Source of the DNA: Bacteroidota bacterium
GTDB taxonomy: Bacteria > Bacteroidota > Bacteroidia > UKL13-3
NCBI GenBank assembly: GCA_947464275.1
Contig: CANHVU010000019.1
Location: 1 to 64,000 of the forward strand
Direction of reading: 5' to 3'
DNA length: 64,000 nucleotides
The position numbers and the translations under genes are program-made. This document shows positions 17,753 to 56,000 of the stretch, piece after piece. The notes below the pieces were generated by a model. The model worked only from the letters and a program-made list of their open reading frames with translations, ran no database searches and was not told the DNA's origin. Numbering within the stretch: position 1 is the stretch's first letter; each line of letters starts with the position of its first letter.

Positions 17753-19165
17753 ATGTTTAAATCTGTTAATTTCAAAAATCCTTATCATTGGTTAGTTTTA
17801 GTACTAATTTGCTGTGTAGTTATTTTTAAATGGGAAGCACTTGGTTTGCCTTTTTTTTGGGATGAAGCATGGGTTTATATGCCAGCCATTAGAACCATGG
17901 CGGAACAAGGTCCAAGTATTATGCCTGCAAGTATTGATCCTGATTTATATACTGGCCATCCGCTTTTATTTTATTGCTTAGCTTCAAGTTGGATAAAAGT
18001 TTTTGGTTATAGTTTGTTTAAAGCGCATTTGTTTCCATTACTTATTGCTATTTCACTGTTAGTTAGCATATATTTTATAGTTTTTAAATGGACAAATAGT
18101 TGGTTTACTGCATTTTTATCGGTTTTATTATTAGCTGTTCAACCCATATTTTTAGCCCAAAGCACTTTTTTATTAATTGAAGTTTGGCTTGGGTTGTTAT
18201 TTTTATGGTCCTTTTATTTTTACTTTAACCGCAATTGGTGGGGATTTTCAATAGCTGTTGTACTTGCTTTATGGAGTAAAGAAAGTGCTTTTTGCTTAGT
18301 TCCAGCTTTTATCATGACCGCAATTATTGAACTATTATACAAAACCATAACGCCTAAAGTTTTTGTGAAAATAGCATTAGGTGTAGTTGTTTTATTTTCA
18401 ATAGGTTTTAGTTTTTTCATTATTCAAAAAGCAAAATTGGGTTGGTTGTTTTTTCCTCGTCATGCCAATTGGATTACCATGGCCGATTTTTTTGATAAAA
18501 TTGAAGGTTCTGTTTTAATCATTTTTATGAAACAGGGGAGAAGTATTATTTACATTATATCATTATTAGTATCTGTTGTAAGTTTTGGTTTTTTTAAAAA
18601 CAAATTGATAAAAAGCCACCAAATTAAGTTTTTGGCATTTATAATTATCACAATTGGTTTTATGCTTTTTGCATCCATAAACTTTTTTTCAACAAGATAT
18701 CTATTTGCAGTTATCCCTTTATTGATGATTGGTTGTGCCATTCTGATAAGCACTATTTTTAATACGGTTTATCAATATGCTGCAATTTTAGTGTTTACAA
18801 TAGTAGGCTTAGTAAATATTAATAACAGCATTGAACATCTGTACTTTGCTGATGTAGAACTAAACTACATAAGAATGTTGAAGGCTCAAGTTGAATTTTG
18901 CCAATACATGGAAACTACCAGACCCAAGGAAAGCATTTATGCGCCATTTTTGGTTTATATGAATTTAAGCAGGCCTTACGCAGGTTTTATAGAAAAAGAT
19001 TTGAAAAACTTAAATCCAATTGTACTCGATACCTCCAATGTTTATTACATTAATACATCGAACGAAACTTGTAAAGAGTTGGACAGTATGATAGCTAATA
19101 AAAATGTTTACTTGGTAAAAAGGTTTGAAAATCATCAAGCTAAAGTTGAATTGTTTAAAAGATAA
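17753..19165 (+). CDS. GT-C glycosyltransferase, ArnT/PMT-like
   Basis: This 470-residue membrane protein has about 10-12 helices. The first extracytoplasmic loop contains FWDEAWVYMPAIR with an acidic pair where GT-C enzymes bind the lipid-phosphate sugar donor. TGHPLLFYCLASSWIKVFG follows, like ArnT. The C-terminal 90 residues are soluble. It probably transfers a sugar from a polyprenyl-phosphate donor to a lipid, glycan or protein outside the cytoplasm. The upstream GT2 is the likely donor-making partner. The acceptor is unknown. Confidence 0.8.
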   Translation: MFKSVNFKNPYHWLVLVLICCVVIFKWEALGLPFFWDEAWVYMPAIRTMAEQGPSIMPASIDPDLYTGHPLLFYCLASSWIKVFGYSLFKAHLFPLLIAISLLVSIYFIVFKWTNSWFTAFLSVLLLAVQPIFLAQSTFLLIEVWLGLLFLWSFYFYFNRNWWGFSIAVVLALWSKESAFCLVPAFIMTAIIELLYKTITPKVFVKIALGVVVLFSIGFSFFIIQKAKLGWLFFPRHANWITMADFFDKIEGSVLIIFMKQGRSIIYIISLLVSVVSFGFFKNKLIKSHQIKFLAFIIITIGFMLFASINFFSTRYLFAVIPLLMIGCAILISTIFNTVYQYAAILVFTIVGLVNINNSIEHLYFADVELNYIRMLKAQVEFCQYMETTRPKESIYAPFLVYMNLSRPYAGFIEKDLKNLNPIVLDTSNVYYINTSNETCKELDSMIANKNVYLVKRFENHQAKVELFKR

Positions 19166-19171
19166 ATTAAT

Positions 19172-20596
19172 ATGAATTTTATCAAGCAAACTTCTTTTTT
19201 TTATTACACCTTAGCCATAACTGCAATTGCTCTTTTAATTATTTGTTTCTTGTTTGATGGCACCGGAGGAGGAGGAGATAGTGTTTATCATTTTCAATAT
19301 GCAAAATTTGCATCCCAACATCCCGAAAATTTTTTCAATCATTGGGCTAAACCTTTATATACCATTTTTGCTTTTCCCTTTGCACAATTTGGATTTGTAG
19401 GTATTAAAGTGTTCAATGTATTAATGAGCTTGGTCTCGGCCTTTTTTACTTATAAAATCTTACAATATTTTAAAACTGCGAATGCACAGTTTATTGCAAT
19501 AGTTCTATTTTCAATTACACTATTTGTCAATGTAACAGTTTCTGGTTTAACCGAACCTTTTTCTGCTGCATTATTAATGGTTTCCATTTATTTTTTAGTT
19601 AAAGATAAAACAATTTTAGGTCTATTTATTATTTCCTTTTTACCGTTTATTCGTTCCGAAGGCTTAATAATACTTGGAGTTGTTTTTATATACTTAATTG
19701 TTGCTAAGAAGCTCAAATGGAGTCCTTGGTTAATATCAGGCCATCTGGTTATGTCGGTAATTGGTAGTTTTTATTACCATGATTTATTATGGGTGTTTAA
19801 CAAAATTCCTTATGCCCATGTAAGTAGTGTTTATGGTATTGGTACTTGGACTCATTTTATAGTTCAGTTGTATTTTCAAATTGGGTTAATAGAATATGTT
19901 CTCTTTATTGTAGGTTGTATAGTAATGGTAATTACATTGATAAAATTAAAAGGTAAAATGCCTTTTTTTAATGAAAAATTGTGGTTAGTATATGGCTGTT
20001 TTTTTGCATTTTTTATAGCTCATACTAGTTTTTGGGCGTTGGGTATTTTTAACTCAATGGGCTTGTCCCGCGTATTTGTGAGTGTTATGCCTCTATTAGC
20101 AATTATTGTAATTGATGGTTTAAATTATATTGAAAACCTTGTGCTTTTAATAAATGAAAAATTAGCAATAACTGTTAAGTATGCGTTGATTACCATATTG
20201 ACCATATTTCCTTTTTTACCACCACCAACTTCCTTTAAACTTCCCGATGATTTTGAACTAGACGCTTCGCAAGTTTTAATAAAAAACAATGTGGTACCAT
20301 ATTTAAATACTTTTAAACCTAACAAAACAATAGTAATTGCAGATATTTCTATTCCATTATTTTATAATTTAGATCCTTTTGATAAATCAAAAGTAAAAAT
20401 GATTTATGATGTAAAAGATTTTAATTCATTGGATTCAAACACTATTCTGGTTTGGGATACATGGCTTTCTGTAATGGAATTTGGTTTAACATTAGAAAAG
20501 TTAAATCAATGTAGTAATTTAAAAATGGATACTATTTTTCATATTAAGAGTAAGCAGGGGCGGGTTACTGAATACGCTATTTTTAGTGGAATATAA
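19172..20596 (+). CDS. Polytopic GT-C-like membrane protein
   Basis: This 474-residue protein has about 10 helices. Its first loop carries a glycine-rich acidic motif (DGTGGGGDSVYHFQYAKF). A GLTEPFSAALL and an LPFIRSEG segment follow, which resemble positions of GT-C mannosyltransferase-like proteins. No characterised family can be named with certainty. It begins 6 bases after the previous gene and is third in the GT2/GT-C/GT-C operon. Its last 25 codons are duplicated, with divergence, at 22369-22449. Confidence 0.7.
   Translation: MNFIKQTSFFYYTLAITAIALLIICFLFDGTGGGGDSVYHFQYAKFASQHPENFFNHWAKPLYTIFAFPFAQFGFVGIKVFNVLMSLVSAFFTYKILQYFKTANAQFIAIVLFSITLFVNVTVSGLTEPFSAALLMVSIYFLVKDKTILGLFIISFLPFIRSEGLIILGVVFIYLIVAKKLKWSPWLISGHLVMSVIGSFYYHDLLWVFNKIPYAHVSSVYGIGTWTHFIVQLYFQIGLIEYVLFIVGCIVMVITLIKLKGKMPFFNEKLWLVYGCFFAFFIAHTSFWALGIFNSMGLSRVFVSVMPLLAIIVIDGLNYIENLVLLINEKLAITVKYALITILTIFPFLPPPTSFKLPDDFELDASQVLIKNNVVPYLNTFKPNKTIVIADISIPLFYNLDPFDKSKVKMIYDVKDFNSLDSNTILVWDTWLSVMEFGLTLEKLNQCSNLKMDTIFHIKSKQGRVTEYAIFSGI
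20516..20590 (+). repeat. Direct repeat, copy 1 (3' end of the 474-residue GT-C-like gene)
   Basis: These 75 bases encode NLKMDTIFHIKSKQG and onward. They align with 22369-22443, in the same orientation, at about 63 of 75 positions. The first 26 bases are identical and nearly all differences are transitions. Confidence 0.8.
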
Positions 20597-20712
20597 TAAC
20601 TTATTTTTATTTGTTTTTTTTGCGGTAAACTACTTATTATTACCTTCTAGTTTATTATATTATTTGTCGTATTCTGAGTTCATTTATATTGTAATTTTAA
20701 AAATAAAATATG

Positions 20713-22212
20713 TTACTGATTACTAACTTCCAAATTTTCAATAACAATACCATTTATTTGTTTGATATCATTAGGTATTTTTCCATCATCATTAATTAAT
20801 ACTGTATGACCTTTTGAAATCAATTCAATAATCAATTCTTTACTTGGAATTTTTGAATACACAGTAAGGTCGGTATAGAACATGGCTTCTATTTCATTAC
20901 AATAATTAAACAATATTCCCTTAATAATTTTTCTTTCATTGAGTTTTTTTAAATCAGTAACCCATTTTGGATTTCGATTTATATTTTCAAATGGTTTTAC
21001 TCTTTCAAATGTATATCTAATAGGTAATGCAATTAGTAAAAATAGAATTAACGAATAAAACCATTTTGTTTTTTTTATAATCATATACTCTGAAAGCACA
21101 AAATAAAATAATGCTGTAATAATAAATAATGCAGGGGAGGTAAAAAGTATATATCCTTGCATTTTTGTTTTAGCAATTGAGAAGAAAAGTGTCGGTACTA
21201 AAAACCATACCAATAATATCAATTGTTTTTTATTAGTTGTATTTTTATACAAATCATAAAAGAACCATAAAAGTGGTAGATAGATTAAATCTCCATAATT
21301 GATTCTAATTTTATCGAAAAAATAATAAAATGGGCCTGTTTGACCTTCTAAGGCCTCCGTAATATGTTTCATATTAAAACTTGCTTCGTATTTCGCTTCA
21401 ACTGGAAAAACATTAAAAATATAAAGTTGCCAAGGTAAAAATACAATTATGCATATAGTCACTAGAATAATAAAGTTGTAAGCAATTTTTTTATAATTAA
21501 AACCTCCAAATTCTAAAACAATTAAAAGCCAAATTGGTAAAACTATTAAAGCTGGTAACCACTTGCTTAAAATAGCAGCACCTATGCTAATTCCTGCTAA
21601 AATATTATAAATTAATTTATCTTTTTGGGCAAAAACAATACTAAAATAAATTGCTAATTCAATAAAGAAAAGAAAGAAAACATCAGGATGATCTGTAGCT
21701 ACTCTTCCTGCTGTTATCTCAACAATTAAACCATTAATAGAATAAAAAAATGCAGCTAAAAAGCCAACTTTTTTGTTAAAAAGTTTACTGCCTATTTCGA
21801 AAGTAATCCAGATGCCGACTGTAGTTAAAATAATAGAAGGTAATCTTAATGCAATTTCATTAAATCCAAACAGATGTAAACTAAGCGACATTACCCATAA
21901 GGGCAAAGGTTGTTTATGAACCCAAATATGATTCCCAACCCAGTTTTTATAATCATATTGTAAAATAGGATTTTCATAAAGGGTTGGGATAAGAGGATGA
22001 TTAATCAAATTTTTTGCAACTAAGGCATGGTAACGTTCATCCCAAAAATGCAAGTAAAAATCGAAAGCAGTAAATAACCTAATTACTAAACCGCAAATAA
22101 TCAATAATAAAACGGCTATTTGGTAGTTATCTTTTTTTGGGTAATTAAAAGAAAAATAATAACCTAATGAACATAAAACAATTGTTATTATTCCGAAGAC
22201 AATATTATTCAT
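20713..22212 (-). CDS. GT-C glycosyltransferase, ArnT/PMT-like
   Basis: This protein of about 499 residues (508 from an upstream TTG at 22239) has about 11 helices. It has the best ArnT-like pattern in the cluster: WDERYHALVAKNL in loop 1, then WVHKQPLPLWVMSLSLHLFGFNEIALRLPS with the HKQPLP motif. I prefer the ATG at 22212, because it starts a typical first helix (MNNIVFGIITIVL). It transfers a sugar from a polyprenyl-phosphate carrier, acceptor unknown. The gene lies on the opposite strand between two direct copies of its neighbour's 3' end (20516-20590 and 22369-22443). Confidence 0.82.
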   Translation of the reverse strand: MNNIVFGIITIVLCSLGYYFSFNYPKKDNYQIAVLLLIICGLVIRLFTAFDFYLHFWDERYHALVAKNLINHPLIPTLYENPILQYDYKNWVGNHIWVHKQPLPLWVMSLSLHLFGFNEIALRLPSIILTTVGIWITFEIGSKLFNKKVGFLAAFFYSINGLIVEITAGRVATDHPDVFFLFFIELAIYFSIVFAQKDKLIYNILAGISIGAAILSKWLPALIVLPIWLLIVLEFGGFNYKKIAYNFIILVTICIIVFLPWQLYIFNVFPVEAKYEASFNMKHITEALEGQTGPFYYFFDKIRINYGDLIYLPLLWFFYDLYKNTTNKKQLILLVWFLVPTLFFSIAKTKMQGYILFTSPALFIITALFYFVLSEYMIIKKTKWFYSLILFLLIALPIRYTFERVKPFENINRNPKWVTDLKKLNERKIIKGILFNYCNEIEAMFYTDLTVYSKIPSKELIIELISKGHTVLINDDGKIPNDIKQINGIVIENLEVSNQ

Positions 22213-22368
22213 TTTCAATAATAATTCTTTTTTGGACAAATCAAATAATAAATAAGTATAGCTACTAACTTATCAAAATAATTAAGGAATTATGTTTCAT
22301 TCATAAAAACACTGTTGAACAATAAATATTGCTTTTTGTTCTTTTCTTGCTAATAAACCTAGTTCAAC

Positions 22369-22449
22369 AATTTAAAAATGGATACTATTTTTCACATTAA
22401 AAGCAAGCAAGGATGTGTTACTGAATATGCTGTTTTTAATAAAAAATAG
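22369..22449 (+). pseudogene. Remnant of the C-terminus of a 474-residue GT-C-like gene paralogue
   Basis: Reading from 22369 gives NLKMDTIFHIKSKQGCVTEY, then AVFNKK and a TAG stop at 22447-22449. The intact gene at 19172-20596 ends NLKMDTIFHIKSKQGRVTEY, then AIFSGI. Upstream of 22369 the reading frame meets a stop and the similarity ends, so only about 25 codons are left. Mostly synonymous changes suggest that the copy was once under protein-level selection. Confidence 0.82.
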
Positions 22450-22469
22450 ACGTTATTTTTTATTAAAAA
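22433..22469. repeat. AT-rich 16-bp inverted repeat
   Basis: TTTTTAATAAAAAATA (22433-22448) and TATTTTTTATTAAAAA (22454-22469) are perfect inverse complements with a 5-base spacer. They cover the end of the pseudogene and the end of the methyltransferase gene, both of which encode a C-terminal FNKK. The repeat may act as a weak bidirectional terminator. Confidence 0.6.
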
Positions 22470-23202
22470 TTATCATTAATGAAACCCCAAACGGTAATTT
22501 TATTCTTGGTTTAAGTAAAGCATTTTCGGCAATAAAAATTCCATATAATACCTTATTTAAAAAACCTAATTCAAACATACTATGGTCTGAGCCACTGCCA
22601 TCGCGTTTGAATAAATTGGGGAATTTATTGCTTAGCCATCTAACTGCATAAATGGGCATAAACAAAATGGTATTGAAGTAAGAATGGTAGGTAATTGTAC
22701 CTTTGTTTAAATCAAAAAGTGGTAATAATGTTTTGTTGGTATAGCGTTTAAAATGATAATTTATTACATCGTGTTTACTCCATAAATCCATAAAGGCAGG
22801 AACGGTTATAAAAACCACACCGCTACTTTTACAAACCCTTATCATTTCATTCACTGCCAATTGGTCGTTTTCTACATGTTCTATCACATCAAAAGCACAA
22901 ACCAAATCAAAACTATCATTGGCAAATTGCAAATCTAAAATACTGCCTTGTTCTATATCAATGTTCAACTTTTCTTTAACAAAATTATAGCAAACTTCAT
23001 CGTACTCTATTGATTTTACCTTGCCAAATTGTTCTAACATAATTGAGGTGGCACCTGTAGCCACACCAATATTTAAAATATTTAAATCGGTTCTATTATT
23101 AAATGTATTTTTTATTTGAGTTTTAAGTATTTCCAAACGAGCTGTAAACCACCAATTACTGCGTTCTAGTTCGTAATATTCTTTGTAATACTCTGGGGTC
23201 AT
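22453..23202 (-). CDS. Class I SAM-dependent methyltransferase
   Basis: This 249-residue enzyme has the Rossmann methyltransferase motifs: motif I LNIGVATGATS (about 43-53, with an unusual IGVATG where GCGTG is common), acidic residue after strand 2 (SIEYDEV), and SFDLVCAFDVIEHVEND (about 102-118). The N-terminus YYELERSNWWFTARLEIL is typical of methyltransferases in polysaccharide clusters. The C-terminus has a hydrophobic segment near the membrane-protein genes. It probably methylates a sugar or lipid-linked glycan, which is an inference from its neighbours. Confidence 0.85.
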   Translation of the reverse strand: MTPEYYKEYYELERSNWWFTARLEILKTQIKNTFNNRTDLNILNIGVATGATSIMLEQFGKVKSIEYDEVCYNFVKEKLNIDIEQGSILDLQFANDSFDLVCAFDVIEHVENDQLAVNEMIRVCKSSGVVFITVPAFMDLWSKHDVINYHFKRYTNKTLLPLFDLNKGTITYHSYFNTILFMPIYAVRWLSNKFPNLFKRDGSGSDHSMFELGFLNKVLYGIFIAENALLKPRIKLPFGVSLMIIFNKK

Positions 23203-23283: not shown

Positions 23284-24717
23284 TTATTTTAGTTTAAAAA
23301 CCAAAAATTCATTATTGTTAAACATAATTTTAAGTCCAGTTGTATCTGCGAGTTTATCGCCTTGTTTATAAATCCAATAATTTGCATTTGAAGAGCTGAT
23401 TGCGTTTGTATTTAAGACGTAAATACTTTCACGATTACAAATTAATCGTAACACATTAGGTTTAAAAAAAATAAATTTATCAGTATATTTTGTTTTTGTA
23501 TATACAAATTCAAATAATTCTTTTGCTTCGTTTGACATTATTTCATTGTCTTGTGTTTTATACAAAGTTTGGTTACTAAATGCAATGAATATAGAATAGA
23601 AAATAATTACATAAAATACCATAAAATGTAGTTTATACAAACTAACAAACTTTATCTTTTTAACTAATGATTGAAATAAAAGACTATACCCAATACAAGC
23701 AAAGTAATAATATAACGGCACCAAAAAAATCAAAAATCGCAATCCTTGTTGATAAGGCCATAAAATTAATAGTAGAAAATGCACAAATATTAATACACAA
23801 AGAAAAATATTTTGTTTAACTTGATGATAAACGCCCAAAACTACAAACGGGAATGTTAGCCAAACAAAAGTATTAGAGTCATATAAAAACCAACTTGGAG
23901 CATTTGTGTAATACCATATATTATCAATAACTATTTGTAATGTTAATTTCGAAGATTGCTGAATATAGCCGTTACTTGAACTTGGGTAAATAAAATTGAC
24001 AAAGATATAAACAGAAATAAATACTGTTGAAAAAGAAATACTCTTCATAATCAAATTTTTTAATGTTATTTTATTTTGAAAATAAAAAATCAATTCTGTC
24101 AAGAGAACAGAACCAACAACACTTATACTTAATGTTTTTGTATGAAAAGCAACTGCTAATACTAATCCAAGAATAAAAAATTTAAATAATATGGTTTTGG
24201 TGTTTTTTTCTTTTTTAAACAAATAAATAATAATACCAAGCCAAATCCACATCATAGCAGGAACATCTGCTAATACATTATTGTTGAATACAATAAAAAA
24301 GTTAGATGTAGCCAACAATCCTACAATCAAAATTGCTTCAAAAGCCCCTAATTTTTTGTAAATTAAATAACAAACAGTACATAAAAATACTACAAAACAA
24401 CAGACAACAAGAATTTTAAAAGCAACAAAATTTAGGTTAAATAATGCATAAATTGGTGAAAGCATTAACGGGAAAACTAAAGGATATACATCAGGATTCA
24501 ACCTTTCATAAGAACCATCGCAACTAGCTTTACTAGCTTCATATAGATTATATGTGTTTCCATTTACAATTGCTTTAGCTTGACTTATATAAAGAGCAAA
24601 ATCACCACCCCAGTTATGACCATTATTCAAAATAGAATATGTATAGCAAAAATTAAGGGCGCTAAAAATAAGTACACCAAATACAAGCAAACAAATCTTT
24701 TGTCTCTTAAATTTCAT
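23284..24717 (-). CDS. GT39/GT83-like polytopic membrane protein
   Basis: This 477-residue protein has about 10-11 helices. Loop 1 contains GHNWGGDFALYISQAKAIVNG, with an acidic GGD motif as in GT-C enzymes. Later segments read NPDVYPLVFPLMLSPIY and NNNVLADVPAMMWIWLG, typical of the PMT-like fold. It lies 20 bases after the GT2 gene at 24738-25445 on the minus strand, so the two probably form a donor/transferase pair. Specificity is unknown. Confidence 0.75.
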   Translation of the reverse strand: MKFKRQKICLLVFGVLIFSALNFCYTYSILNNGHNWGGDFALYISQAKAIVNGNTYNLYEASKASCDGSYERLNPDVYPLVFPLMLSPIYALFNLNFVAFKILVVCCFVVFLCTVCYLIYKKLGAFEAILIVGLLATSNFFIVFNNNVLADVPAMMWIWLGIIIYLFKKEKNTKTILFKFFILGLVLAVAFHTKTLSISVVGSVLLTELIFYFQNKITLKNLIMKSISFSTVFISVYIFVNFIYPSSSNGYIQQSSKLTLQIVIDNIWYYTNAPSWFLYDSNTFVWLTFPFVVLGVYHQVKQNIFLCVLIFVHFLLLILWPYQQGLRFLIFLVPLYYYFACIGYSLLFQSLVKKIKFVSLYKLHFMVFYVIIFYSIFIAFSNQTLYKTQDNEIMSNEAKELFEFVYTKTKYTDKFIFFKPNVLRLICNRESIYVLNTNAISSSNANYWIYKQGDKLADTTGLKIMFNNNEFLVFKLK

Positions 24718-24737
24718 AAAAAATCATTGTATTGTAA

Positions 24738-25445
24738 TTAATTAAAAACCATTTTGATATAAACCTTAAAAAAGTTCACCATTTCTTTTGAAACTACTTT
24801 AAAATTCATTTTTCTAACTACCGTATTTTCGTTTAAAACCACTGGAATTAAACCAATATTCAATTTGTTTTTTGCAGCTATGCATATAAACTCTAAATCA
24901 AATAAATAGCGATTGATTTCAGTTTTTAAAAAATAAGTTTTTACTTCATTTCTCATTCCTTTAAGTCCACCTTGCGTATCGTCAGTTGGAATACGAAGCA
25001 ATGTTTTTATAAAAAACTTTAAAAGTTTTGATATAAAAGCTCTATGAGCAGGAATATTGTTATAATAACTTAAACCACGGGTTCCTATTGTAATATCACA
25101 ATTATTAAGTTCTTCTAAAATGTTTAAAAAACTTTGATTGGTGTATGGAAAATCAATGTCGGTATAAATTATATAATCTCCTTTGGCTTGTTCTATTCCT
25201 TGTCTAATGGCATAACCTTTACCTTTGTTTTGGGCATAAGAAATTATTTTACAATTAGGTAATTGTTTGGTTAAACTCATTAAATCGGCTTCCAAATTTG
25301 TACTACTTCCATCATTAACAACAATTATATCAACGGTATAATTTTTTAGCAGCGGTGCTATTTCGTTGTATCTTATTAATATATTCGCTGCCCAGTTTTT
25401 ATCAGGATTATAACAAGGAAGTACAATAGAAAGAGTTTTATTCAT
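24738..25445 (-). CDS. Glycosyltransferase family 2, polyprenyl-phosphate type
   Basis: This 235-residue GT-A enzyme has LSIVLPCYNPDKNW, VVNDGSS (about 41-47), NKGKGYAIRQGIEQAKGDY and the metal-binding YTDIDFPY. It lacks C-terminal helices. It is paralogous in design to the GT2 at 17021-17734 but clearly different in sequence, and it differs in having a TQGGLKGMR acceptor segment. It heads the minus-strand set GT2, GT-C, methyltransferase. The sugar is unknown. Confidence 0.9.
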   Translation of the reverse strand: MNKTLSIVLPCYNPDKNWAANILIRYNEIAPLLKNYTVDIIVVNDGSSTNLEADLMSLTKQLPNCKIISYAQNKGKGYAIRQGIEQAKGDYIIYTDIDFPYTNQSFLNILEELNNCDITIGTRGLSYYNNIPAHRAFISKLLKFFIKTLLRIPTDDTQGGLKGMRNEVKTYFLKTEINRYLFDLEFICIAAKNKLNIGLIPVVLNENTVVRKMNFKVVSKEMVNFFKVYIKMVFN

Positions 25446-25530
25446 TAATTATGAAATAGAATTTTGAGGCAATAATAGTTTTTTTATTATCATTGTTTTT
25501 GTATTTTTAAAAATAACGTATTAGAAATTT

Positions 25531-27285
25531 ATGTTCAAATTAAAAAATATACAAAATAGGAATTTTTATTACCTGCTGGCACTCATAGCCATTTTAACTT
25601 TTAGTAATTTTATTTATACTGGTTTTTCAACTAACGATGATTACGAGTATTATACAAGGTATTTTACTGATGCCAATGTTTGGAAATCGAGCTATGAGTA
25701 TGCAAAAATGAATGGTAGGTTTTATTTTGCTTTTATGCAGCCACTGTTTAATATTATTATTCCTTACAGTTTTGATTCATTAGTATTAACAAGGATTTTT
25801 AACTTAGTACTTATTTTTTTAGGTGCTATTATTTTTGCTATTAACTTAAAAATCGTTTTTAAAACAAGTAAATACTCTTATTTGTTCGTATTATTCTATT
25901 TGGTTTTTGTAACCATAAAAGGGGGCAATAATCCTATAATTTCCTATCCATTTTATTTTTCTACTTCATGGGTGTTTTTTCAATTAGCTACTTATTTTTT
26001 CATTAAATTTTTAAACGATGATGTGAAAAAGTATAAGTTCTATTCTTTATTTTTTTATTCTTTAGCACTTCTTTTTTATGAAATGTACTTGGTGTATTCA
26101 CTCATGTTTATTGCCATAACTTTTATATTTTACTACAATCTGAATTGGAAAATTTCAGTACTTAATCTGTTTAAAAAGAATAACTTACTTATGTATGCCA
26201 ATATAGTTTACGTAGTAGTGTATTATGCTTTTAAAAAGCAGATTTCTAGCGAATTATATGACGGAGTTAATATTGCTGGAGAATTTAAATTTTACTCATT
26301 TGCTAGGGCCATGTTTTATTTATCAAAAGGCGCCATGCCTTTACATTTATATTTTTCAGGACATGGTGTTTACGATAATTGCTCATATTTACTTGGTGGG
26401 CATGTACAAAGTGTTTTAACGCCCATTTTAAATATAAAAATTGAATGGCTTGTAAAATCAATTTTAGTAGCTACAGGCTTGATGATAATTGCTAAAAAAT
26501 ACAAGGAAACTAATAGTAATTTATTTGATGTAAAACAAAAAATTATGTTGTTTTTATTGTCGTTTGCACTAATTTATGTACCTCATTTTTTGTTGGCGTT
26601 AACTGTTAAGTACCAGTATTATACTAATATGGGAATGGATAACTATATAACTTCTTATTTCAGCAGTTTTATTTTCTTTAGTTGGTTAGTTTTTCTGACA
26701 TATTTAATTCTTTCTATTAAATATGATTTGGTAAAAAATATAGTTTTTGCACTATTTGTTTTTATTGTTTCTGTTAGCTCTATTTTGATTGATTATAGTA
26801 ATTTTCATGCAAAAAAAGATCTGGAGAAAGTGTACGAATTTTTTGAATCAATTGATTATTTGGTTAAAAGCGAAGATTTTAAAGCAATTAAAGATAGTAG
26901 CGTTATTGTTGCTCCCGATTTATTTAAAGTTAACTCTGATATTAGTTATTACAATGTTGGTAATTTTGATATTATGCGTTACGTTAAAGCTAAAACCAAT
27001 AGAACATTTATCTTCTTTAAAGATTCGAGTTTAATTAATACTCCTAACCCCAACAACTACTTTTTAACCTATAAAACCACTAAAAATGGTTATTACTTTT
27101 TAATAACGAAAGCAAATAGTCACGAGACAAAATTGTTTATAAGAAGTACAAAAAGTAAAGAAACAATCAATGTTTTTGATAGAGACTCAGTTTTTTCAGA
27201 TAATATTACCTTAAACAATAAAGAAGGTATGAGTACCATAACATATAAAAAGTTTGACCACAATCGTTTTGTAGTAGCAAATTAG
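25531..27285 (+). CDS. Large polytopic membrane protein in the glycosylation cluster
   Basis: I do not recognise a named family. The 584 residues contain about 10-11 helices (residues 10-430) and a soluble C-terminal domain of about 145 residues. Loop 1 has STNDDYEYYTRYFTDA, an acidic/aromatic stretch like the GT-C donor site, and NGRFYFAFMQPLFN follows. A GT-C-like or GtrII-like glycosyltransferase is the best guess from topology and location. It is divergent from the GT2 at 24738-25445. Confidence 0.6.
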   Translation: MFKLKNIQNRNFYYLLALIAILTFSNFIYTGFSTNDDYEYYTRYFTDANVWKSSYEYAKMNGRFYFAFMQPLFNIIIPYSFDSLVLTRIFNLVLIFLGAIIFAINLKIVFKTSKYSYLFVLFYLVFVTIKGGNNPIISYPFYFSTSWVFFQLATYFFIKFLNDDVKKYKFYSLFFYSLALLFYEMYLVYSLMFIAITFIFYYNLNWKISVLNLFKKNNLLMYANIVYVVVYYAFKKQISSELYDGVNIAGEFKFYSFARAMFYLSKGAMPLHLYFSGHGVYDNCSYLLGGHVQSVLTPILNIKIEWLVKSILVATGLMIIAKKYKETNSNLFDVKQKIMLFLLSFALIYVPHFLLALTVKYQYYTNMGMDNYITSYFSSFIFFSWLVFLTYLILSIKYDLVKNIVFALFVFIVSVSSILIDYSNFHAKKDLEKVYEFFESIDYLVKSEDFKAIKDSSVIVAPDLFKVNSDISYYNVGNFDIMRYVKAKTNRTFIFFKDSSLINTPNPNNYFLTYKTTKNGYYFLITKANSHETKLFIRSTKSKETINVFDRDSVFSDNITLNNKEGMSTITYKKFDHNRFVVAN

Positions 27286-31783: not shown

Positions 31784-34450
31784 TTATTTACCAGAAACAA
31801 TAAACTTAACAGTTTGCTTCATATTATTATTACTTAAATTTAAGAAATAAACGCCATTGTTTAGTTGGCTAATATTTAACTGCTCGTTAAAGTTTTTAGT
31901 TGTGATGGTTTGTTTCACAACTTCTTTACCTAACATATCATAAATTACCAAATTGGCAGGTAATTGGCTGATATTTTCAATGCTGATGTTTAATTCATTG
32001 AATGCAGGAGAAGGGTAAACTTTAATGGTATTATTCAAAGCACTCATGTTTTTAACACTGGTATTTCTTGTTACAATTACTGTTCTAACTTGGGTAGCTT
32101 TATTACCTGCTAAATCCGAAACGGAATAAGTAATGATATATGTACCAATTTTACTTGTATCTAAAGTACTAAGTTTAGTAATCTTGTTGGTAATATTACC
32201 ATCTACATTGTCAGTTGCAGTTGCACCTGGATCAGTGTATGATTTATTTTGCATTACAGTATCAGGATTGTTGCCCAACAAAGTAATAATTGGTTTAATT
32301 GTATCAGGTGCAATAACATTAATAGTTCTTACTATCGAATCAATATTGCCTGCTTTATCGTTAACAGCATAAGCTACATAGTAAATACCAGCAACTTTAT
32401 TATTTACTGTTCCAGAAGTTCTAATTTTCGAGGTAATATTACCATCTTTATCGTCCGTTGCAGTAGCACCTAATTCATTGTATGCACTATCTTTTTTTAT
32501 GTTAATAGTAGCAGCACCATTCAAGGTAATAACTGGCTTAATGGTATCAATATTAGAAAAGTCTGCATCATTTGCATCGCGAGGAATTAATTTAAAGTTC
32601 CCATTTGCAAAGTACATAGGTCCTTGAATAAAATTCATTTTCATGCCTACATAAACTAAGTTGTTAAAGTTCTTAAAGTTAGCATTATAATCATCAACTC
32701 TAAATGTTGATCCACCGTTTCTACTTATACCAAATTCACCAAAAGCACCAGTTGGTTCGTCAGGATTTTTACTTGAAACTGTTAAACTATCAAATTTAAC
32801 TAAAACACCTTCCCATTTACGACTATAACTTGAATTTCCTAAAGCAAATGAATCTATAGATAATGAAGTTTCGAACGCAGGTAATGGATTACCAGATGAA
32901 ATAACTGTACTCAATATGTTATTTAAGGTAGTTATTCCAAATGATTCTCTAACAGTTGCTCTTGTAATCAATACTGAATCTCCTACATTCCATTTAGCAG
33001 TACTATCAGCACCTGAATTTCTCGCAACAAAAATAGCAGAGTTTGCACCATTTCCTTGTTGTATGGTTATTAAACCACCAAATCCTTTACCTGTTACAAT
33101 TCCATGAACATTAATATTTAACAAAGAATCACCATTCCAAACTGTTGCTCCGTTTGGTAATGAGCTATATTGTAATGTGCTAATTTTATCTATACCATTT
33201 GGACCAGTAATATAATATCTATTTCCAATATTAAATGGATCAGGAACTAATGTAGTTCTATTTTTTTTATCAATAGCACTTACCCAATAGCTCATTTCGC
33301 ATTCAGCATTGGTTGGTGGAATTTGAGCTAAATAATAATTAGGAAAAGAAGGAACTGGTGTTAATCCAACTGAATCCATTGTATTTGTTATTGAGTTTTT
33401 AAAATATACTTGACTTGATGATAATGTAGTATCACCAACTGTAATTTCAAAAATTAATTTTGTAGTATCACTTGATTTTATAGTAGTTGGGTTTTTGCTT
33501 ATAAATTTAATTGAAGGAGGGCAAGCAGTACAAATTTTATAATCACTAGGATATAAAGGAGCAATTCCATAACGGTTTATGCCATTAACTGTGTATTCAG
33601 TAATAATTCCTTGCAAAAATTCTAATCTAGTTCCAATTGGTGGAGCATTAAATCTATTTGGATTAACAGTATTCAATCCAGTTGAATCGCCATTGCCATC
33701 TCTGCGGTAATAAGCTGAAAAATCTCTAATATCAATTACATTTCCATTATCATCAATAACACTCCAAGTTGATCTATTTCCACTAACAGATGATTCATAA
33801 ACTGTAACATTTCTTAACCTTACCAATGTACCTTCTAAAGCCTCACCAGTAAATTTTTGTTGCACTCTGCTTGAATTAGGATTACCCAACATTAATTGGT
33901 CTGCGGTTATTTCATTATAAACTAATGTATCAGGAGTTAAACTCAATTGCTCCACACCATTTTCCCAATTAGCGTTACTTCTTATTAAATTAATTTGTGT
34001 TTCTCCGTCCTGAAATTCCCTTATTACACCTGTAACTCTTACTTTATATCCTACCACAAAATTATCGTAGAATTTAGTTTCAGCTAAAAGATTTGCTAAT
34101 GTTGTACCTGTTCCTGAAGGTTCACACATAATTTGGACTCCACTCCAAGGTCCTCCGCCTTTTTTTTGTAGAAAAGAAGCTTTTCTATTAGCAGATAATC
34201 CATAAGCCTTAGGATTAAAAACTACTATTCCTTCTATTCGTACCGTATCTTTGTAAATGGTATCTTTAAAGGTGGGTGTCGTATAATCTGGTCTGGTAAC
34301 AGTGCCTCTATTAGAATTTATAGTAGGAATTGCTAAACGTGTAGGGTTTACATACTGAACAGTATCAGTTGGAATAATTGGATAAGGATTTTGCGCATTG
34401 GCAATTAATCCACCCAATATGGTTGTGATTAGTAGAATTGTTTTTTTCAT
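31784..34450 (-). CDS. Large secreted T9SS type A protein with two DUF5011-type Ig-like domains
   Basis: This 888-residue protein starts with a signal peptide (about 1-19, then QNPYPIIPTDTV). Residues about 60-310 look like a pair of OB-fold-like modules (YKVRVTGVIREFQDGETQINL). A further beta region follows. Two Ig-like repeats near 638-795 share DTIKP-ITL, the GATATDD/GATATDN motif and KAGNIDSIVRT-like strands. The C-terminal 80 residues (IKVYPSPAFNELNISIE, then GVYFLNLSNNNMKQTVKFIV) form a T9SS type A sorting domain. It should be secreted by the Gld machinery at 58750-63250. The OB-like region resembles those of surface nuclease-associated proteins, but no catalytic site was seen. Confidence 0.85.
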   Translation of the reverse strand: MKKTILLITTILGGLIANAQNPYPIIPTDTVQYVNPTRLAIPTINSNRGTVTRPDYTTPTFKDTIYKDTVRIEGIVVFNPKAYGLSANRKASFLQKKGGGPWSGVQIMCEPSGTGTTLANLLAETKFYDNFVVGYKVRVTGVIREFQDGETQINLIRSNANWENGVEQLSLTPDTLVYNEITADQLMLGNPNSSRVQQKFTGEALEGTLVRLRNVTVYESSVSGNRSTWSVIDDNGNVIDIRDFSAYYRRDGNGDSTGLNTVNPNRFNAPPIGTRLEFLQGIITEYTVNGINRYGIAPLYPSDYKICTACPPSIKFISKNPTTIKSSDTTKLIFEITVGDTTLSSSQVYFKNSITNTMDSVGLTPVPSFPNYYLAQIPPTNAECEMSYWVSAIDKKNRTTLVPDPFNIGNRYYITGPNGIDKISTLQYSSLPNGATVWNGDSLLNINVHGIVTGKGFGGLITIQQGNGANSAIFVARNSGADSTAKWNVGDSVLITRATVRESFGITTLNNILSTVISSGNPLPAFETSLSIDSFALGNSSYSRKWEGVLVKFDSLTVSSKNPDEPTGAFGEFGISRNGGSTFRVDDYNANFKNFNNLVYVGMKMNFIQGPMYFANGNFKLIPRDANDADFSNIDTIKPVITLNGAATINIKKDSAYNELGATATDDKDGNITSKIRTSGTVNNKVAGIYYVAYAVNDKAGNIDSIVRTINVIAPDTIKPIITLLGNNPDTVMQNKSYTDPGATATDNVDGNITNKITKLSTLDTSKIGTYIITYSVSDLAGNKATQVRTVIVTRNTSVKNMSALNNTIKVYPSPAFNELNISIENISQLPANLVIYDMLGKEVVKQTITTKNFNEQLNISQLNNGVYFLNLSNNNMKQTVKFIVSGK

Positions 34451-53090: not shown

Positions 53091-56000
53091 CTACCTAATA
53101 ATAGTAATATTTCCTTTTTTATTATAAAACTCATCATCAAAACCCGAGTAGGTGATGATGTAAAAATATACTTCGTTTTGCACAGAATGGTTATTTAATT
53201 CAGCTTTCCATTTTTCCTTTTTGTTATTGGTTTCAAAAATTTGCTCACCCCATCTATTAAATATTTTAAGGTTAAAAGTTTTAACAAAAGAATTTGGAAT
53301 TTCTAAGTCATCATTTAAATTATCATTATTGGCCGTAAATGCATTTGGTGGATATACATTTGGTTGTTGAAATAGAAATATTTCATTCGATTTGCTTTGA
53401 GCCAAATTCCTAGTTAAAGTTCCATCAGGAGGTGCTTCTAATCCATTTATATAATAATAATATGCACCTTCATCGGTATTGAAGTTTTTATCAATATAGG
53501 TATTTGGTTTAACCCTAACCAAGGTTTGATAAGGGTTTGATATATATCGTCTGAAGATTTGATACTCATCTACACCATTGTCCCAACCTATATATTTATT
53601 CCAATCTAGGGTATGGTTAAGGTATTTAGAAATACCTTTTAATAGAATTGAACAAGCTATTTTTCCTGTTGGCCCCATATTATCGCACGTATCATACATT
53701 ACTAAATGATAGCAATATGATTGTTTATTAATATTTACCTCCTTATCAATAAAAAAAGTATCTAATACATTTTCCAATGTTTTGATTAAACTAAAGTTAA
53801 CCCCATTATTATTAGACTTGTAAAGTAAATATTTCGCAAAATCTTTTTCCGTACTCGGCAACCAACTGATACGAATATTTTCGTTTGTATCTACCGTTAC
53901 AGTAAATAACTTTTGTTGTTTAGGAATATACTCAATTTGTTCAAAAGTACTAATTGAATCACTAGGCTTGCCTGATATTTCGCAATTGTTTACTCCTACC
54001 ATAAAGTAGGTGTAATTAATGGTTTTATTATTGGGCGAGTTATTGTCTAAATAGAAGCGGTTCTGTTTGTTTCTTATCGTATCAATTACTTTGAAATTAC
54101 TATTATTGATGCCTCTATAAATTAAATAGTAGGCAAAGTTTTTGCTAGAGGTTGAATCGCCATAATAAATATAAGTTTTATTATCATCGCTCAGTGTCAT
54201 ACAAAGCATATCAGTGGCGTTAATTGGCGGTAGCGGCAGTATTTTAAGCCAAATACGTTTGGTAACAATATTGGTTATTGGACATTTTAAATCTTGAACT
54301 TCTATGTCTACAGGAAAGTAGTTAATATTATAAGCCTCACACGATGGAGTCCAACAAAATTGGGTAATTACACTATCTTTTCCGTAATTAATTTTGTTCA
54401 CTATTGGCAAAGTACCAACTAAATTATTTGAAAATAAACTTGAGGTTAACTTTTGTATTAATGAATCACCTAAATCAACTGATTTTATATAAAAACAGTT
54501 GTTCTCATTTACTTGAAATTCAATGGTATCGTTACCAATATTAGTTGATAAACTATCAGTTTTGGAAATTATTGGAATACTTTTAATGGTTCCTAAATAA
54601 TCTGATGCAACACCTTCTGAATCGCATTCGTTAACACTTGTAATTTTATAGGTATAATTAATAGTTCTGTTTTGAGGCGAGTTATTGTCAGTGAAAAAAT
54701 TTACTATTTTTCCTACTTCACCTAAAAGAACATAACCAGTATCATTAATTCCTCTGTATATTCTATAACTTTTTAAATAAGGCGAGTTATTAGTATCAAT
54801 CCAATTTAGTTGTGTTTTGTTATTTAATAATCCTATGCAATTTAAAAAAGGCGGAAGCATGGTTTTCATAGGTTTTATTTTTACTATGATTTCACTCTTT
54901 GAAGTTTTTGATAGTGGACAGCCATTGTCACGCACATCGGAAGTAAAAGTAACTGAACCAACTCTCGATAATTCACAACTTGTATTCCAACAGAATCTAT
55001 TTACAATTTTTTTGTATCCAGCTACTTGCTTTGTTATTGAAGGCTGGTTTGTATAGGTAGAAGTAAAAAATGGAGATGAAATTTTCATATATAACGAATC
55101 TCCTGGTGCACTTGTGTCTTTTGCATTGATGTCAAAGCAAATGGTATTGGGTATTTCTACTTCATAATAGGTTCTAAGTAATTGTGCATTGCCAGTATCG
55201 CTGTAATTAATATTTGGTGCAGGATTACTTGCACATGTAATTATGTTAAATTGAAGTTCAAGTCTAACCTCACCAATTTTAATACCATTTCTAAATTCTT
55301 CTACTTTTATGGCTGCTACATATGTGCCAATAGAATTTGGTGTTACTGTAATGTCTCCAGTTTGTGCATTTATGCTAAGTGATGGATTTCCAATAATGGA
55401 TGATTTTGCATTAAAACCTGTACTCCAATTAACAGGTGCATATGGACCTGAAAAATTAACAGGGTTGTTGGGAGCACCGTTATTATTATTTTTATCTAAA
55501 TTGCCATTTAGTGGGTCTGTAATTGAATAAACCAAAACATCATTATCAGCATCGGTATAGCCAAAATTATAAGTAAAAGGAGCTCCTACACATAATAATG
55601 TAACTGGATTATTGGAATATTTTGGTGTAGAGTTATTAAATGATCTTGGAGGAATTTCAGCATAAAATGCGGTACTGGCATCGCCAGGAAAATTTATATT
55701 ATCAATAATACTATTTCTGCAACACCTTTCCCAACTTATGTAATAACCTCTAGAATTATCTAATCCTGGCATATTTACAATGGAAGAATAATATCCTTCA
55801 TCTGTACATTCAAAATTAGTTCCAGCACATTTGGGATTTATAAATTCTAACTTTTTTGATGAAATAAATGCAATGTTGTAGTAGGAGTAGAGTACATTGT
55901 TATTTTTTTGGTATACACCAACTCTTATGCTTGGTTTGTTAAAATCTGCTTGCCCATTTCTACAATCCCTAAGTACTTTTAAGGTAATTCTATAACTGTC

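Follow-up and report, generated by a model that had tools for sequence, protein, structure and literature searches.

Protein-coding genes such as icd can serve as integration targets, where a phage or other element enters at the 3´ end and supplies a substitute for it. The T6SS effector-immunity displacement arrays of V. cholerae are a published precedent: an incoming module is anchored by homology on one side and displaces the old first gene, the 3´ end of which was in one case shifted back, while the old second gene stays behind it (PMC5361080). For these arrays, a mechanism resembling homology-facilitated illegitimate recombination has been proposed (PMC5361080). In that type of recombination, a linear piece integrates by homology at one of its ends and is joined illegitimately at the other (PMC3240628).

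The locus described here resembles the V. cholerae arrays in its displaced 3´ end and in the old partner gene that is kept behind an inserted module. In contrast to those arrays, it is built of glycosyltransferase-like and methyltransferase genes, the incoming methyltransferase gene has apparently decayed, and an unrelated transferase has been gained. Compared with homology-facilitated illegitimate recombination, the event is known here from its sequence outcome alone. The likeness to icd-type integration lies in the gene that is kept whole with a displaced 3´ end on the far side, but no recombinase occurs in the neighbours scanned, the core is not repeated elsewhere in the genome, and a remnant of the resident neighbour gene lies inside the insert. 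The kind of outcome is already published for effector-immunity loci, and no general idea is changed by it. A narrow literature search found no report of the locus or of paired stubs in glycan loci.

The window, which is the whole stretch of 64,000 nucleotides analysed, contains a glycosyltransferase-rich locus in which GT2a, GT470 and GT474 on the + strand are followed by an ArnT-like gene, a methyltransferase gene (MT), GT477 and GT2b on the − strand and ORF584 on the + strand. The names GT470, GT474, GT477 and ORF584 were coined for the present analysis, and a Pfam scan gave no match for GT474, GT477 or ORF584. GT474 is read as a putative membrane glycosyltransferase-like protein; NCBIfam relates it weakly to a family for cell-surface glycopolymer formation (30 bits versus a cut-off of 150). 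A scan of public genomes yielded 26 loci, L003 to L006 among them. The features of the window are as follows:

from 17021, + strand: GT2a, in the upstream part of the locus
from 17753, + strand: GT470, in the upstream part of the locus
19172–20596, + strand: GT474, intact, 474 residues, 93% identical in amino acids to its sole counterpart in each of the congeners L003 and L004
20516–20611, + strand: copy 1 (c1), the last codons of GT474 itself and 15 nt downstream
20622–20683, − strand: psi-MT, a decayed 5´ stub of a methyltransferase gene, about 21 codons with two in-frame stops and the interior missing
20713–22212, − strand: ArnT-like gene, intact, 499 residues, a PMT_2-type (GT-C) glycosyltransferase, GC 26.5%
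22213–22368, no strand: spacer from the ArnT-like start to c2, AT-rich, GC 21.8%
22366–22449, + strand: copy 2 (c2), the 3´ stub of a second GT474, its last 26–27 codons and stop without the gene body
22453–23202, − strand: MT, intact methyltransferase, with 3 bp from its stop to the stop of c2
23284–27285, mixed strands: GT477 (−), GT2b (−) and ORF584 (+), in the place of a four-gene cassette in L003–L006

The overall order is GT474 (whole), MT (stub), ArnT-like gene (whole), GT474 (stub) and MT (whole). We read this arrangement as a scar left when an additive insertion brought two versions of a single glycosyltransferase locus together, an explanation that the comparisons below make probable by a narrow measure.

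The direct repeat and the two stubs

The initial annotation stated that the last 75 bases of GT474 recur at 22369–22443 in the same orientation, with the ArnT-like gene between the copies on the opposite strand. Both statements are correct: 20516–20590 and 22369–22443 match at 63 of 75 positions (84%), and at 76 of 96 when the alignment is extended over the downstream DNA. A search of the genome with the 474-residue protein (E ≤ 0.001) returned the gene itself and 22363–22440 only, the latter with an E value of 1.4e-6 and 81% over residues 447–472 of GT474. The likeness of c1 and c2 is beyond chance, and of the window's four direct-repeat families with a length of 50 nt or more, this one is the longest and the most alike. 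Two more direct-repeat pairs of about 70 nt, at 32179–32493 (76%) and 53980–54689 (72%), are perhaps repeats inside long genes.

The initial 26 nt of the two copies are identical, and all 12 differences fall in the following 49 nt (Fisher p = 0.006, post hoc). The earlier description of the differences as mostly synonymous is fair but weak, as six of the 10 differing codons are synonymous and four are non-synonymous. A computed crossover between c1 and c2 deletes 1,853 bp, including the ArnT-like gene, and leaves a 474-residue protein that ends in the C-terminus of c2, in agreement with the outcome that had been predicted for such recombination. Given the homology limits of RecA, recombination over 26 identical nt should be rare, and nothing seen in the sequence points to the use of the repeat as an active switch.

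The gap between c1 and the ArnT-like gene contains psi-MT, which matches the first 62 nt of MT, at 49 of 62 positions for the MT of L004 and at 46 of 62 for both that of L003 and the window's own. In 20,000 random sequences from a dinucleotide model of the gap, the maximum was 35 of 62. Read on the − strand, psi-MT starts with ATG and keeps the MT frame apart from its two stops. The c1 match extends about 12 nt into sequence that is the end of MT in the relatives, a piece that is AT-rich and weak. The added piece therefore once carried a second MT, the interior of which is now gone. This stub, which was overlooked by the initial annotation, settles the anatomy, which is that of two GT474-MT units merged around the ArnT-like gene with their redundant partners eroded.

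When the 6,968 non-ORF nt of the window were scanned against its own 50 ORFs of at least 100 aa, the only relics were c2 and psi-MT, which flank the ArnT-like gene; c2 was detected by both protein and DNA and psi-MT by DNA alone. The same kind of scan over the window plus 18 of the 26 loci (28,817 non-ORF nt in total) found no relics in 16 of the 18 loci, one place in L004 that is apparently a gene cut by the locus end, and a single 29-nt DNA match in L025. At L027:4963-5253, GT474 is cut to a 5´ stub (residues 1–97, then stops), followed by a GT2b homologue (73%) on the opposite strand; the stub was masked as an ORF in the scan and hence lies outside its count. It is an independent scar at the equivalent place. 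A remnant of any gene was also sought in the spacer at 22213–22368, where nothing rose above noise. A scan for regulatory signals was uninformative, with nine promoter-like sites versus 18.1 expected and no terminator-like site versus 0.9 expected.

The site in related genomes

In L003 and L004, the two nearest relatives, the order is GT470, GT474 and MT, the stop codons of GT474 and MT are 3 bp apart, and the ArnT-like gene is missing. The spacing between c2 and MT in the window is the same 3 bp, which indicates that c2 marks the old site. The earlier proposal that c2 had once belonged to a real gene holds. The DNA match of L003 ends at 20611 and resumes at 22366, and that of L004 ends at 20611 and resumes at 22373. 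Since these matches break off and resume around the insert, the intervening DNA has been added. Both stubs, the ancestral junction and the lack of the insert in the relatives examined are shown directly by the sequences.

The ArnT-like gene is absent beside GT474 from all four loci L003–L006, and the gene order differs in L005 and L006. At L003:5815-7107, the counterpart of the 430-residue membrane protein of L004 is split in two ORFs (215 and 178 residues), which is probably a broken gene. The initial annotation had suggested looking in relatives for an intact second paralogue at this site, and the search, which covered nine other genomes of the genus and 54 further genomes of the family, did not bear this out. 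GT474 occurs in four of the nine genus genomes, once in each and without an ArnT-like neighbour; the GT474 loci of these four are contained in L003–L006 and so are not independent of them. GT474 relatives were found in 30 of 64 genomes, own included, with more than one match in the genome under study (gene and stub), in five g3 genomes and in G050 (two or three each, 28–48% identity). A GT474 relative at G050:C6:150595-151173 (48%, residues 1–185) has six in-frame stops and is apparently a decaying pseudogene.

The locus carries further marks of exchange. A segment of GT470 (18480–19050, + strand) matches L004 at 435 of 570 positions, as opposed to 667 of 727 and 113 of 116 in its flanks. This divergent segment, the middle-to-late part of the gene, has sharp edges, and identity outside it is 92–97%; it is a mosaic that reflects allele exchange at the same locus. 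To the right of MT, the cassette of L003–L006 consists of a wecE-like gene, an acetyltransferase-like gene, a GT2 and the 430-residue membrane protein (names read from sequence). The GT470 mosaic and the differing gene set right of MT independently demonstrate recombination at the locus.

Insertion, duplication and other origins

For the donor, the mode of joining and the order of events, we infer the following course. A segment from a congener, comprising an ArnT-like gene, MT and the 3´ part of that congener's GT474 allele, would have entered and recombined with the resident GT474 via homology near the 3´ end of the gene, and the far end of the segment would have joined beside the last 75–80 nt of the resident gene. 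This right-hand join may have been made by homology-facilitated illegitimate recombination or, if the donor was circular or in tandem, by a single crossover. GT474 would have remained whole with a C-terminus now derived from the donor, the resident 3´ end would have been displaced 1.85 kb downstream as a stub still adjoining the resident MT, and the incoming MT, being redundant, would have decayed to a 5´ stub. On the left side of the insert, homology runs through GT474 and psi-MT, while for the stretch just upstream of c2 the loci compared, which may not include that of the donor, offer no convincing counterpart. The insert is absent from the site in congeners and has a lower GC content (26.5% for the ArnT-like gene, similar to the 25.8–27.4% of the genes swapped right of MT and below the 29.2% and 30.4% of GT474 and MT); c1 and c2 are as divergent from each other as from L003, and the donor searches found no donor.

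The main rival is a tandem duplication of GT474-MT within the lineage, after which the ArnT-like gene entered where the two units meet, most of the second GT474 was lost, and the first MT later suffered an internal deletion. With such a junction insert, a duplication predicts the order GT474, psi-MT, ArnT, psi-GT474 and MT, and we consider it possible but rather unlikely. A tandem duplication followed by replacement of one copy had been raised in the initial annotation; the two GT474-MT units that it implies are met with (psi-MT at 20622–20683), but foreign addition at the 3´ end of GT474 is favoured over duplication in place. Between the copies there are 12 differences in 75 positions (12 of 49 beyond the identical 26 nt), a divergence similar to that of each copy from L003 in this stretch, while the body of GT474 differs from L003 by 7%. 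Over the same 75 nt, c1 and c2 share 63 matches, c1 and L003 61, and c2 and L003 64, a near equidistance that exceeds the expectation for a recent duplication. We modestly favour the addition of a congener's segment because the difference between c1 and c2 is as large as that to other species in the same stretch. Duplication also needs more steps, and no relative with two units was found among the genomes searched.

The tail of GT474 bears on the same choice. From 20542, the c1 tail diverges from the relatives more than the GT474 body does, with 96 of 1370 differences in the body and 10 of 46 in the tail against L003 (p = 0.0015), and 103 of 1370 and 9 of 46 against L004 (p = 0.008); these tests are post hoc and cover few bases (46–49 nt). 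Between L003 and L004 there is no rise from body to tail (p = 0.42), and the tail step is matched by none of 1,324 body windows against L003 and by four of 1,324 against L004. The c2 tail is also raised (9 of 49 against L003 and 8 of 49 against L004), so the GT474 tail may simply change fast in this lineage, a point in favour of duplication; as a relic, however, c2 may drift unconstrained in its tail. Moreover, c1 and c2 have two common states that are lacking in L003–L006 (T in TTA, and ACT for ACC), both within the 26 identical nt, which fits an in-lineage duplication and also a crossover at or beyond 20541. Nor is psi-MT clearly closer to the MT of a relative than to the window's own, a further counterpoint to a foreign source. 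On balance, a crossover near 20541 between the resident GT474 and a diverged allele carrying the tail, MT and the ArnT-like gene appears the better reading.

It is quite improbable that the window's arrangement is ancestral and that the relatives lost the ArnT-like gene via recombination between two GT474 3´ ends. A crossover between the copies would indeed yield the layout of L003 and L004, but L003–L006 have no ArnT-like gene in the DNA compared around GT474 and no comparable stubs in the self-scan, L005 and L006 have another gene order, and c2 and psi-MT are already degenerate in the window, so that the full second unit must be earlier. A mis-assembly of two co-occurring strains is very unlikely: the draft genome comes in 68 contigs, and short-k graphs can be tangled by an exact repeat of 26 nt, but 12 of 75 positions separate the copies, and the two stubs stand in order around the gene.

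A further rival, which we regard as highly improbable, is a site-specific event in which a circular cassette of one or two genes integrated at the 3´ end of GT474 and brought a replacement for that end, in the manner of some phages and islands, with the 26 nt as the core. Identity is complete over the 26 nt at both ends and then falls to 37 of 49, the reading frame is restored with unchanged length, and the core contains an imperfect inverted repeat, AAAAATGG-ATA-CTATTTTT, the counterpart of which in L003 is perfect. This palindrome, however, falls in conserved codons, and the presence of psi-MT within the insert indicates that the donor stemmed from this very locus. A Pfam scan of nine neighbouring proteins revealed no recombinase or integrase, and the 26-nt core (up to three mismatches) occurs in the genome only at the two c1/c2 sites, which argues against a cassette system. 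The broader idea that integrase-less single-glycosyltransferase cassettes move in and out of the 3´ termini of GT-C genes in this genus by way of a short conserved core, each with a replacement gene end, is scarcely credible; if true, a cell would switch its surface sugar and the C-terminus of the host gene together.

The gained transferase and the meaning of the scar

The ArnT-like protein passes the Pfam PMT_2 gathering score (78.6 bits versus 26.1; E = 8e-22), which places it in the PMT_2/GT-C superfamily. It shares the PMT_2 domain with ArnT, the lipid A aminoarabinose (Ara4N) transferase, and a weak similarity to the ArnT structure 5ezm (residues 97–369, E = 2.1e-4), but its score of 54.2 bits is far below the curated ArnT model's cut-off of 567, so that it does not qualify as an ArnT by that model. 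PMT_2-type enzymes use polyprenyl-phosphate sugars, which GT2a-like enzymes make. We infer that the net gain was one putative transferase of the polyprenyl-phosphate-sugar type.

Homologues of the ArnT-like protein were sought in the genus (10 genomes, own included), the family and order (the same 64 genomes), the class (395 drawn) and the phylum (395 drawn). The closest other match within the genus reaches 38% (G001, on a different contig), and matches of 26–28% occur in the genome under study, G001, G002 and G003. The best matches in the class draw are 58, 54 and 52%, all in other families, and in the phylum draw the gene itself alone passed E = 1e-180. One record of a plasmid collection is similar, with 36% identity over 36% of the protein. 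GT474, MT and other locus proteins are absent at E = 1e-4 from all of the eight neighbourhoods examined, out of those of 16 homologues (that of L055 being only 3.2 kb), and a GT474-MT-ArnT donor haplotype was not found in the genus, family, order, class, phylum or plasmid searches.

The cluster is a surface-glycan ("sugar-coat") locus, and the scar is gene shuffling of an ordinary kind that is unusually legible. It is a readable fossil of a glycan locus gaining a gene without losing its existing ones, in which the relics on either side of the added gene reveal the neighbours that had been duplicated and later lost. The arrangement suggests a search rule for such events, namely the 3´ stub of a gene on one side and the 5´ stub of its neighbour on the other.
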